From Corynebacterium fournieri (GTDB lineage: Bacteria; Actinomycetota; Actinomycetes; Mycobacteriales; Mycobacteriaceae): a stretch of DNA of 64,000 bases. The DNA is taken from NCBI RefSeq assembly GCF_030408775.1, contig NZ_CP047210.1:2232001-2296000 (forward strand), given 5' to 3'. Below the pieces are notes generated by a model. It made no database searches and was not told the DNA's origin. It was given only the letters and a program-made list of their open reading frames with translations. The translations under genes were made by a program, and so were the position numbers. Positions 13,959 through 38,830 of this stretch are shown piece by piece; position 1 is the first letter of the stretch; each line of letters begins with the position of its first letter.

Positions 13959-14105
13959 CTAGCGTGGCAGTTCTTGCGGGGTCGCCGCCGGAGCGTTAGC
14001 CGGGAACAGCACCTCGTAAATCACGCGGAGGAAATCCAACACCTGCTTGCCAATGCCCTGCGAGAAGAACGCCACCAGCGGCTCAACCAATGCTCCAAGA
14101 TCCAT
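13959..14105 (-). CDS. Small amphipathic hypothetical protein
   Basis: A 48-residue protein starting MDLGALVEPLVAFFSQGIG. It is strongly hydrophobic on one side of its helices and ends in a Pro/Ala-rich tail (ANAPAATPQELPR). No signal peptide is present. Length, the MDL start and amphipathic composition recall the very small outer-membrane channel proteins PorA/PorH of corynebacteria, but I cannot establish homology. Its start codon is 22 bp from the start of the divergent pseudouridine synthase gene. Confidence 0.55.
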   Translation of the reverse strand: MDLGALVEPLVAFFSQGIGKQVLDFLRVIYEVLFPANAPAATPQELPR

Positions 14106-14127
14106 GGCGGCTAATCTACTACACACA

Positions 14128-15108
14128 ATGGCACGCAAGAAGACGCAGAAAACCGGCCCGCTGCCGCCCCGCAACGGCCTCGGGGCCACTCGCGCCCGCG
14201 TGCCAGAAGGCCCGGGCATCAAAGCCGGCGATTTCATCTGGCACCTCATATCCACCCAACGCCACCGGCACCCCGTGGACGATGAATCCGCGGTGTTGTC
14301 GCGGTTTGCCGAAGGAAACGTCGTCAAGCGCGACGGCTCCGCACTCACACCCGATGAGTGGCTGGCCCCCGGCACCGACGTCTACTTCTACCGGCGCCCA
14401 GCGCCCGAGCGGCCTGTCCCCTTCGACATCACCACCGTCTTCGAAGACGACGACATCCTCGTCGTGGACAAACCGCCATTTCTGGCCACGATGCCGCGCG
14501 CCTCGCACATCACCGAAACCGCCACCGTGCGCCTCCGACGCGCCACCGGAAACGAAGAACTCACACCCGCCCACCGCCTTGACCGCGCCACATCCGGTCT
14601 GCTCCTGCTGACCAAACGCCGCGCCATCCGCGGCGCCTACCAGGAGCTTTTCGCGCGACGCGAGGTGCGCAAGGAATACGAGGCGATCGCCCCGCTTCAC
14701 GACGTCCCTCCGGCCACCCCCTGGCTCCACCACTTGACCAAACAGTCCGGCGAACCCGCCGCCCGCGTCGTGCCGGGCGCCGAGCCTAACAGCCGCACCG
14801 TCGTCGCCGACGTCTCCCGGCTCCCGCTGCCTGTCGAAACCGCATTGCAGGCCCACTACGGCCTCACCGAACCCCTCGGCCGCTACACGTTGCAGCCAGA
14901 AACCGGCCGCACCCACCAACTCCGAGTGCAAATGATGCAGGAAGCCGCCCCCATCCTCGGCGACCGCATCTACCCGGAGCTTCTTCCCGCCGACGGCGAG
15001 GACTTTTCAGTGCCGATGCTTCTGCGCTGCACCCTGCTCGGCTTCACTGATCCGTTGAGCGGGGAACCTCGAGCGTTTCAGCTGCACGGGGAGTGGCCGG
15101 TGCCCTAG
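14128..15108 (+). CDS. RluA-family pseudouridine synthase
   Basis: A 326-residue RNA-modifying enzyme that isomerises uridine to pseudouridine. The catalytic motif is HRLDRATSGLLLLTK, whose aspartate is the active-site residue. FEDDDILVVDKPPFLATMP precedes it and GRTHQLRVQMM follows, both typical of the RluA branch. The N-terminal 90 residues contain an S4-like or linker region. The RNA target (23S rRNA or tRNA) cannot be told from sequence. The nearby rRNA operon is probably coincidental. The repeat array begins right after the stop codon. Confidence 0.9.
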   Translation: MARKKTQKTGPLPPRNGLGATRARVPEGPGIKAGDFIWHLISTQRHRHPVDDESAVLSRFAEGNVVKRDGSALTPDEWLAPGTDVYFYRRPAPERPVPFDITTVFEDDDILVVDKPPFLATMPRASHITETATVRLRRATGNEELTPAHRLDRATSGLLLLTKRRAIRGAYQELFARREVRKEYEAIAPLHDVPPATPWLHHLTKQSGEPAARVVPGAEPNSRTVVADVSRLPLPVETALQAHYGLTEPLGRYTLQPETGRTHQLRVQMMQEAAPILGDRIYPELLPADGEDFSVPMLLRCTLLGFTDPLSGEPRAFQLHGEWPVP

Positions 15109-15123: not shown

Positions 15124-15870
15124 GGGTTGGTATTCGGGGTTGTCCGCAATGCGGAAGTTCCGCGGTGTGGGGTAGCTCGTATTGGTCGGCTAGCGGAGAT
15201 CGAGTTCGTGCGGTTTCGGCGGTGTATTCGACGTCCGGTGCTCGACTTTCAGCGCAGCGGCGATGTCATCGTGGGTGCGCATTCGTGTTCCGCAACGCAT
15301 TGCGCTCCGGTTGTTGGGGGCTGACCCATTGTTGGTAGCGGTCTGCTTGTCCGCAATGCGGGGATTCCGCAATGGGTCACTCCGCACCAACTAACCGCCG
15401 GGAGGATCAACCCCGTGGCCGACGTGGTTGGTTGGTGTGCCCCATTGTTGGTTGTGGTGTGGTTGTCCGCAATGCGGAAATTCCGCAACGTACTGGTCTC
15501 CGGTTGGTGGGGGCTGACCAATGATTGGAGTCGGTCTGGTTGTCCGCAATGTGGAGATTCCGCAATGGGCCAGTCTGCCTCAGTAGCCACGGGACCGAAG
15601 GTCGCCTGGTGGACCTGCCCGGTTGGTTGGTGTCGGCCATTGTTGGTGGTCGTCTGGTTATCCGAAATGCGGAAATTCCGCAACGTACTGCTCTCCGGTT
15701 GGTGGGTCGTGGCCAATGATTGGTGGCGGTTTGCTTGTCCGCAATGCGTGGATTCCGCAATGGGTGAGCCCGCAACTGGTAGCCGCTGGGGCGATCGACC
15801 CCGTGATTGGTTGGTGTGCTCCAATGGTTGGTTGGGGTGTGGTTCCGCAATGCGGGTGCCGGTGTGCTGG
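15124..15870. repeat. Array of seven palindromic repeats downstream of the rRNA operon
   Basis: This 0.88-kb gene-free stretch (15109-15990) holds seven related units. Each combines a CCAAT-NN-TTGG-like dyad, an 11-13 bp spacer and TTGTCCGCAATGCGGA, usually followed by TTCCGCAA. The second motif starts at 15140, 15347, 15463, 15540, 15658, 15735 and 15843. Spacings alternate between about 77 and 116 bp, so that two unit types form a supra-repeat of about 195 bp. The central motif is three alternating half-sites TCCGCA/TGCGGA. The last copy has lost two bases. Several frames are open across it, but their translations only reflect the DNA repeat, so I do not call a gene. Confidence 0.85.
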
Positions 15871-15925: not shown

Positions 15926-15977
15926 GAAAGCACCCGCTGTTGGTCATCGTGGTGGTGATCAACGGCGGGTGCTTTAT
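15926..15977 (-). terminator. Hairpin downstream of the 5S rRNA gene
   Basis: AAAGCACCCGCTGTTG and its near-complement CAACGGCGGGTGCTTT flank a loop of about 18 bases, about 15 bp after the 5S gene on the minus strand. It is the likely end of the rRNA transcript. The U-tail is short, so read-through into the repeat array is possible. Confidence 0.65.
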
Positions 15978-15990
15978 TGTGAAGTTGTTG

Positions 15991-16109
15991 GGTCGGCGGT
16001 AACCTACTCTCCCACTCCCTCCCGGGGGCAGTACCATCGGCGCGGGCGGGCTTAGCTTCCGGGTTCGGAATGGGACCGGGCGTTTCCCCGCCGCTATCAA
16101 CCACCGACA
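15991..16109 (-). rRNA. rrf: 5S ribosomal RNA
   Basis: About 119 nt. The minus strand carries the conserved blocks GTCCCATTCCGAACCCGG and GCCGATGGTACTGCC, then GAGAGTAGGTTACCGCC. The ends pair (GTCGGTGGT with ACCGCCGAC), which sets the boundaries to within a few bases. It is the last gene of the 16S-23S-5S operon. Confidence 0.95.
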
Positions 16110-16269: not shown

Positions 16270-19360
<3,091 letters not shown>

Positions 19361-19418
19361 CGGACACACAAACAATCAAGGTATAAACACCAAAACACAA
19401 AAAAGAAAGATACTCGCG

Positions 19419-19753: not shown

Positions 19754-21280
<1,527 letters not shown>

Positions 21281-38529: not shown

Positions 38530-38830
38530 GACTCCGCATTGCGGACAACTTCGCCACCACCAACTATTGGTGCGGACCCAGCAATCCGGGGCGCGTCGGG
38601 GCGGCTGCTCGCAAAAGTTGACGACTCGATTTCGCGAACTGGGGAAACGCGACGCCAAAACGGCCCGATCGTCAGCTTTTACGAATCCAGCCCGCCAGGA
38701 CTCCGCATTGCGGACAATCCCGGGTCCACCAACTATTGGTGCGGACCCACTTTGTGTACGAATCAACGGGGCAAAAACCTGACCTGCACGTTTGCAACGC
38801 GGGAATCGGCCGAAATGTTGATTCGTACAA
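38530..38830. repeat. Second locus of the palindromic repeat family
   Basis: Within the gene-free interval 38398-38837, two units combine TCCGCATTGCGGACAA and CACCAACTATTGGTG, nine bases apart. They occupy 38533-38572 and 38702-38741, 169 bp apart. They are the reverse complement of the units at 15.1-15.9 kb. A 12-bp inverted repeat, GTACGAATCAAC (38757) and GTTGATTCGTAC (38817), follows. No gene is visible in the interval. Confidence 0.8.

Follow-up and report, generated by a model that had tools for sequence, protein, structure and literature searches.

The array behind the rRNA operon

The window, i.e., the whole stretch of 64,000 nucleotides analysed here, covers positions 2232001–2296000 of the single contig (2,389,603 bases) that makes up the genome of Corynebacterium fournieri, and it holds an rRNA operon behind whose 5S gene lies an array of short palindromes (Table 1). 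The array occupies the gap between the end of an RNA pseudouridine synthase gene, at 15108, and a hairpin on the 5S side, directly downstream of the operon, as the original prediction from the letters of this DNA had it. The palindromes number seven, as predicted, and lie at 15140–15856; they are of the TTGTCCGCAATGCGGA type (palindrome A) and are interleaved with a second dyad (dyad B), and together the two make up a bipartite unit with the layout CCAATnRTTGG, eleven bases, TTGTCCGCAATGCGGA.

The copies are less uniform in their letters than had been described. A perfect TTGTCCGCAATGCGGA is present in two of the seven, the others departing from it by 1, 1, 2, 2 and 4 mismatches, and the third half-site ascribed to every unit follows five of the seven as TTCCGCAA, but gives way to TTCCGCGG after the first and to nothing similar after the last. 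The dyad predicted as CCAA-NNN-TTGG is seen as a perfect CCAATnRTTGG at three places, but with one or two mismatches at five more. The A palindromes are spaced by 207, 116, 77, 118, 77 and 106 bp, and the predicted alternation of 77 and 116 bp holds for the five copies from 15347 to 15735 but not for the remaining two; the 195-bp supra-period was reproduced by Tandem Repeats Finder over 15288–15764 (2.5 copies, 79% matches). At up to one mismatch, TCCGCAnTGCGGA has nine matches in the window, six of them inside the array (0.34 expected). The spacers of the array repeat as well rather than being unique, and the earlier dismissal of CRISPR stands.

Table 1. Features of the array, the rRNA operon and the dispersed units, in coordinates of the window
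Feature	Position	Strand	Remarks
RNA pseudouridine synthase gene	14047–15108	+	far side of the array
Post-rRNA array	15138–15858	+	seven A palindromes (TTGTCCGCAATGCGGA type) and interleaved B dyads
A palindrome 1	15140–15155	+	perfect; TTCCGCGG next
A palindrome 2	15347–15362	+	1 mismatch; third half-site TTCCGCAA at 15365
A palindrome 3	15463–15478	+	perfect; then third half-site TTCCGCAA
A palindrome 4	15540–15555	+	1 mismatch; then third half-site TTCCGCAA
A palindrome 5	15658–15673	+	2 mismatches; then third half-site TTCCGCAA
A palindrome 6	15735–15750	+	2 mismatches; then third half-site TTCCGCAA
A palindrome 7	15841–15856	+	4 mismatches, TCCGCAATGCGG kept; no third half-site-like sequence after it
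B dyad CCCATTGTTGG	15325–15335	+	1 mismatch; another at 15441–15451
B dyad CCAATGATTGG	15518–15528	+	perfect; also perfect at 15713–15723 and 15821–15831
B dyads	15307, 15636, 15800	+	2 mismatches
Hairpin between 5S gene and array	15927–15975		arms 15927–15946 and 15956–15975, 20 nt, 90% complementary
5S rRNA gene	15991–16108	-	
23S rRNA gene	16274–19361		
16S rRNA gene	19760–21277		
Dispersed unit, A palindrome	38533–38548	-	perfect; B dyad 38560–38570
D element	38609–38684		GTCAACTTTTACGA arms 62 nt apart
Dispersed unit, A palindrome	38702–38717	-	perfect; B dyad 38729–38739
E element	38754–38830		TTGATTCGTACAA arms 64 nt apart

Dispersal across the genome and the genus

The original prediction had allowed for a local duplication without wider meaning; the unit was found both elsewhere in the same genome and in other corynebacteria. 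At up to one mismatch, TTGTCCGCAATGCGGA has 21 sites in the window's genome (G000) and none for the reversed pattern; those away from rRNA lie at 452 kb, 2270 kb (two, in the window), 2323–2327 kb (four) and 2368 kb (three). Across 201 genomes of the genus, the 16-mer has at least one match in 48, none in 153 and two or more in 14; nine of these 14 carry 7–41 matches, and in none of the 14 does the reversed-pattern control give a match. The more stringent TTGG-N11-TTGTCCGCAATGCGGA picks out 36 stretches among 84,980 species, 34 of which are in Corynebacterium (including C. mucifaciens, C. wankanglinii, C. haemomassiliense, C. curieae and C. bouchesdurhonense), the other two being single, chance-like matches in other lineages. 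When core palindromes are counted with both strands added, genomes with the nuclease gene described below range from 6 (G129) and 8 (G140) up to 106 (G058), the low end being indistinguishable from background, as five comparison genomes have 3–8. Most of the dispersed loci inspected lie between genes, often behind them (with open reading frames called by a composition heuristic).

At one locus (L013, 6579–6904), about 310 bp containing an 84-aa open reading frame lie between two units; a comparison that also took in L077 finds in G158 a single hybrid unit, with the left part of the first and the right part of the second, which points to a deletion or insertion between units. The D and E elements of Table 1 are short inverted repeats, the former between the dispersed units of the window and the latter beside them; D is shared with G179 and G158 and has no match in G016, G189 or G020.

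A companion DUF222-HNH nuclease gene and its upstream palindromes

Directly downstream of one dispersed group of units, at 2368 kb, lies a gene (HNH-1) for a 419-residue protein in which Pfam finds an HNH domain above its cut-off (4e-8) and a DUF222 (13E12) domain slightly below it (1.4e-4); its paralog HNH-2 passes the DUF222 cut-off together with neighbouring pieces. Homologs of HNH-1 are present in 58 of the 201 genomes of the genus and in all 14 of those with two or more units (as a fragment only in G198). A TTGTCCGC-type unit stands directly upstream of HNH-1 in 11 genomes (G000, G002, G179, G038, G158, G069, G189, G016, G020, G129 and G077), and in G129 the sole perfect 16-mer is the copy upstream of the nuclease homolog.

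A first reading of upstream regions covered 20 homologs from 17 genomes, 13 of these genomes having fewer than two units. These regions have tandem palindromes as well, but the palindrome varies: G021 has six copies of AGTCCGCAATGCGGACT and G058 three, ACTCCGCAGTGCGGAGT occurs four times in G070 and three times in G113, and G195 has two copies of AACTGCGCAATGCGCAGTT and G066 nine of TATGCATTGCATA. A further kind, GATGCACGTGCATC, was read in G132. In a sample of 31 family genes from 27 genomes near the top of the homolog search, 13 of them among the 14 multi-unit genomes, 27 genes have at least two copies (up to one mismatch) of one perfect palindrome within 520 bp upstream, versus 1 of 720 shuffles; the same is true of 14 of the 16 genes that come from 14 genomes with fewer than two units. 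Among the four exceptions, three have one copy of the same palindrome, and HNH-2 has three imperfect ones. Such tandem palindromes are absent before all 48 open reading frames of the window (called by the composition heuristic) and before the five distant DUF222 genes tested from the same genome; nor were cognate palindromes found within 0.5–1 kb 3′ of any of 13 HNH genes.

The pattern thins out among 20 more distant homologs from 20 more genomes, the two samples together covering all but 11 of the 58 matching genomes. Two or more copies of one perfect palindrome precede three of these homologs (four if one arm mismatch is allowed; shuffles 1 of 400), six have a single palindrome, at -151 to -170, two have imperfect ones and eight none countable; a single palindrome often arises by chance (216 of 400 shuffles). 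The same palindrome, TGCGCAGCTGCGCA, recurs at -155 to -170 in four of the 20 (L301, L304, L305 and L306), as a lone copy in three, the remaining one having another copy at -336. Tandem, subfamily-specific palindromes are an upstream hallmark of one large branch of the DUF222(13E12)-HNH family.

A GCA-TGC centre is common to nine of the eleven palindrome types, the differences among them lying outside it. On a tree of the quick kind that covers 50 of these proteins, the type changes 11 times for 11 types over 42 labelled genes, as against 18–21 times in 200 label shuffles, the labels having been assigned by eye and eight genes without a palindrome left out of the count (G042 is absent from the tree, its frame breaking at once at an in-frame stop). 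Simple linkage would also lead palindrome and protein to diverge together. The GCA-TGC centre, being common to proteins less than 50% identical, suggests that the nuclease recognises the palindrome.

The paralogs in the window's genome have palindromes of their own: HNH-2 (1553 kb) is preceded by three copies of ACTATGC(A/C)GC(G/T)GCATAGT and HNH-3 (943 kb) by three palindromes of the GTTCTGCAGCTGCAGAAC type. The HNH-2 palindrome is also the second motif mixed into the arrays of relatives and is present in eight of nine genomes searched; among the matches listed, it stands upstream of an HNH-2-type gene in seven genomes and otherwise within about 60 kb, and it occurs in the post-rRNA regions of G189 too. 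The sites of the HNH-1 unit that lie more than 1 kb from a 5S gene gather around HNH-1, 9/10, 14/20, 6/9 and 4/10 of them falling within 100 kb of it in four genomes; without the sites at the gene itself, the counts are 6/7, 11/17, 4/7 and 1/7, the closeness being weak in G016 (1/7).

In some genomes, array and gene occur as one repeated element, with five such copies in G066 (of six matches, about 90–96% identical) and three in G132 (of five matches, 96–98% identical), and since these multi-copy elements share both parts, array and gene appear to move or duplicate together. In two copies of these elements, L272 and L277, about 1.4–1.5 kb of other DNA lies between array and nuclease gene. In G161 and G054, one flank (CCCAGGGA or a near variant) is common to the dispersed palindromes and to those before the genomes' own nuclease genes, and in the window's clade dyad B is found in dispersed units and in units before the nuclease gene alike; with these flanking sequences common to both, the dispersed copies look like offspring of each genome's own nuclease locus.

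A LexA-type box, TCGAAC-N4-GTTCGA with up to two mismatches, is present in 36 of 56 upstream regions, 0.5 being expected; the consensus is that stated for Mycobacterium tuberculosis in PMC4181829, which also names 13E12-family HNH genes of that species in the LexA network. Five HNH endonucleases are listed among the RecA-dependent genes of M. tuberculosis in PMC8151990. LexA control of such genes has thus already been reported and is not new; the nuclease gene is probably controlled by DNA damage here as well. Five distant DUF222 paralogs of the window's genome (L264–L268) have LexA-type boxes upstream (1–3 mismatches) and are without tandem palindromes.

The palindromes lie about 100–360 bp 5′ of the nuclease gene, near the LexA-type box, and six distant homologs have a single site at -151 to -170, which fits an alternative in which they are operators, bound by the nuclease or by a separate regulator, with all other copies spread passively through recombination and no part played by the nuclease in their spread. 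This alternative is unlikely, as 18 of the 21 copies in the window's genome are elsewhere, with the core conserved at such places, and as the 6–13 tandem copies seen upstream in G021 and G066 exceed what an operator needs.

Location and orientation relative to rRNA operons

Of the 21 sites of the window's genome, 11 follow three of its four 5S genes at a distance of up to 1 kb. Comparable shares are found in G179 (18/38), G189 (7/16) and G016 (7/17), each of the four counts having an expectation below 0.07; the other 49 of the 92 units of these four genomes are not behind rRNA. Counted by operon, units lie within 1 kb behind the 5S gene at three of four in the window's genome, four of four in G179 and in G158, and three of four in G189 and G016, where the fourth operon has units at about 2 and 3 kb. 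In orientation, all 29 post-5S units of the window's genome and G179 are antisense to the rRNA, as are, by the sites listed, the units of G158 and those behind one operon of G038, while all 14 of G189 and G016 are sense; in G058, whose nuclease is more distant, a 5S gene is followed by about nine palindromes, which occur in both orientations.

Several rRNA operons have no such array: no units follow the 5S gene of the fourth operon of the window's genome (L026, G000:C1:615000-632000), any of the three 5S genes of G077, which has both gene and units, two of the four 5S genes inspected in G121, or, at up to one mismatch, the 5S genes of G020. Conversely, G161 has five regions, G054 one region and G038 three contig starts that hold sites but show no rRNA. 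No remnants of the nuclease were found beside rRNA arrays in 66 loci, those known to hold the gene being excluded. Thus, the post-rRNA location recurs but is not universal, and the orientation is not fixed; in the window's clade the unit is dispersed between genes and concentrated behind rRNA, and, less uniformly, near the nuclease gene.

The recurrence of the post-5S location in several species, along with a conserved core, recalls the BIME-2 gyrase sites of Escherichia coli, which according to PMC6379681 form palindromic arrays between genes, gyrase sites accumulating both there and downstream of rRNA operons; the same source says that the accumulation of gyrase behind transcribed units seems not to be hard-wired in the genome. 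A parallel could be drawn in which a host protein, be it gyrase, a nucleoid protein or a roadblock, has its sites in the array, these sites being BIME-like and of use to the rRNA operons, e.g., by absorbing positive supercoils. This is a decidedly improbable account: one operon here and all three of G077 are without an array, 153 of the 201 genomes of the genus are without any 16-mer match, and the palindrome marks the nuclease gene even in genomes that have no dispersed unit. The companion found is, unlike in the case of BIME-2, a nuclease gene and not gyrase.

Conservation and folding of the unit

An ungapped alignment was made of 143 matches (up to two mismatches) from the window's genome and seven others, a few palindromes being counted on both strands and one or more matches lying inside a gene. 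The layout is constant: a weak GTGGGTG comes first, followed by ACCAATnRTTGGTG (dyad B), nine bases of loose conservation, TTGTCCGCAATGCGGAGT (palindrome A) and a third half-site that is again weak. Since the search pattern had not included dyad B, the conservation of this dyad is independent support for the unit; it is a clade-specific companion of palindrome A. Orthologous loci were aligned in eight groups of two to seven genomes each, chosen for a recognisable unit, so that losses are uncounted and the pairwise counts are not independent. At these loci the 18-base core differs at 13 of 918 pairwise comparisons (1.4%), dyad B at 89 of 663 (13%), the linker between them at 164 of 453 (36%) and the flanks at 22–24%; in the group of seven genomes the core is unchanged in the most distant pair, G189 and G016, where the flanks are poorly alignable.

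In palindrome A, Watson-Crick pairs are as frequent as column composition predicts at all five positions (e.g., 131 of 143 versus 131.0), and in dyad B three of the five pairs lie within 5 of expectation and two above it by 5 and 10; neither palindrome has compensatory changes over the 143 matches. Pairing between the weak GTGGGTG and ACC exceeds expectation (92, 94 and 66 versus 69.6, 69.9 and 46.2), but so does that in a register slid by one (97 versus 66.6), which may mean that the excess arises from the left part being present or absent. Folded as single-stranded DNA, a unit of the array is unremarkable, with a z of -0.6, but two other units form good folds (-3.1 and -4.9).

The original prediction had proposed that read-through from the operon could yield a regular multi-hairpin RNA, and the array region does fold better than 20 of 20 shuffles, but it does so about equally well on both strands (z -4.7 and -4.9), as is expected of palindromic repeats. 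That proposal now appears very improbable: besides the equality of the strands and the lack of compensatory changes in A and B, the orientation relative to rRNA is opposite in two groups of species and mixed in the G058 array, and about half of the units counted in four genomes are away from rRNA altogether. Taken together, the missing covariation, the conserved core and the orientation that differs between lineages favour, on balance, a site for a protein on double-stranded DNA rather than an RNA hairpin.

Comparison with known systems

The closest parallel is with the REP/BIME repeats and their RAYT genes. Intergenic palindromes in tandem and mosaic arrays are common to both, as are a gene beside its cognate palindromes and the joint divergence of palindrome and protein, and in both the presence of the gene goes with the abundance of the repeat (for the RAYT side, PMC2817692). 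The differences lie in the enzyme, which is a DUF222-HNH protein and not a Y1 HUH transposase, in the cognate palindromes, which are upstream only and do not form an inverted pair on both sides of the gene, and in the repeat, for which no covarying hairpin was found and which has tens of copies rather than more than 100. By analogy, the array would work like a REP/RAYT system (PMC2817692, PMC8266576); it is not a member of that class, the Y1 enzyme not having been found and the flanking arrangement being different. That the repeats, palindromic, intergenic, mosaic and tandem as they are, should be REP/BIME elements mobilised by a RAYT (Y1 HUH) transposase can largely be dismissed, Y1_Tnp (PF01797) being found in 0 of 11 unit-carrying genomes versus 5 of 14 control genomes.

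Within the actinobacteria, the REP13E12 (13E12) repeats of M. tuberculosis have the same pair of domains by Pfam, with DUF222 here below its cut-off, and the REP13E12/HNH/DUF222 repeats of that species are likewise multi-copy (PMC10589994). Cognate upstream palindromes and genome-wide dispersal would set the present system apart from 13E12 as described in the portions of the M. tuberculosis literature used here. A literature search, with subscription papers mostly outside its coverage, returned no recognised treatment of the repeat or of palindromes upstream of DUF222-HNH genes, and a search of the literature by sequence letters gave matches only to a 12-letter term, in papers on unrelated subjects by title.

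Several other candidates were rejected. A cluster of DnaA boxes (TTATCCACA/TTGTCCACA) is at odds with position 7, which is A in the boxes of the origin and G in 140 of the 143 units. A function near the origin or tied to the replication strand, to which the seeming closeness of dispersed units to the origin had pointed, was also rejected, closeness to HNH-1 explaining the placement at least as well and the rRNA arrays of G189 and G016 being oppositely oriented; a polar fork barrier was set aside once the orientation relative to rRNA was seen to differ. For an origin in phages or plasmids no DNA match was found, the 83 viral stretches with one match each being read as chance without a computed control, and the nuclease was not found in phages or viral contigs, with one Rhodococcus plasmid matching at 28%.

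Interpretation and significance

The array of the window is an amplified relative of the palindrome arrays that stand before HNH nuclease genes, and the association itself is directly observed. We would give a probability of about 0.57 to the reading that it is an outpost, without a gene of its own, of the palindromes cognate to a DUF222(13E12)-HNH nuclease family, in a partnership resembling that of REP and RAYT. Binding by the nuclease and spread by breakage and repair are what we infer from the sequence comparisons. In outline, the nuclease, or a complex containing it, would bind the palindrome as double-stranded DNA; damage to DNA would induce it through LexA; nicking or cutting at the palindromes, followed by recombination repair from other copies, would lead both to tandem growth and to copying elsewhere; and multi-copy rRNA operons, which exchange sequence, would pass an array from operon to operon.

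A bolder version, which we hold only tentatively and regard as somewhat doubtful, is that a DUF222-HNH nuclease induced by the SOS response spreads its own recognition palindromes selfishly, in a homing-like way: other copies would serve to mend breaks at the sites, arrays would grow, and the multi-copy rRNA operons would act as safe reservoirs. If this were true, it would amount to a second, independent solution to the REP/RAYT partnership, and one in which the paralogous HNH-1, HNH-2 and HNH-3 would each keep a private palindrome within one genome.

Actinobacterial genomes, that of the tuberculosis bacterium among them, have several genes of the DUF222-HNH (13E12) family, which are without an established function; a role in mismatch repair has been proposed for them in PMC4181829. 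The palindromes described here provide a candidate DNA target for one branch of the family, different in each subfamily (e.g., AGTCCGCAATGCGGACT, ACTATGCAGCTGCATAGT and GATGCACGTGCATC), and such a target would make the function of these proteins directly testable by binding and cleavage assays. The pairing of nuclease and palindrome would also account for the arrays behind rRNA operons, and it suggests that repeats of this palindromic, intergenic kind can do without HUH transposases.
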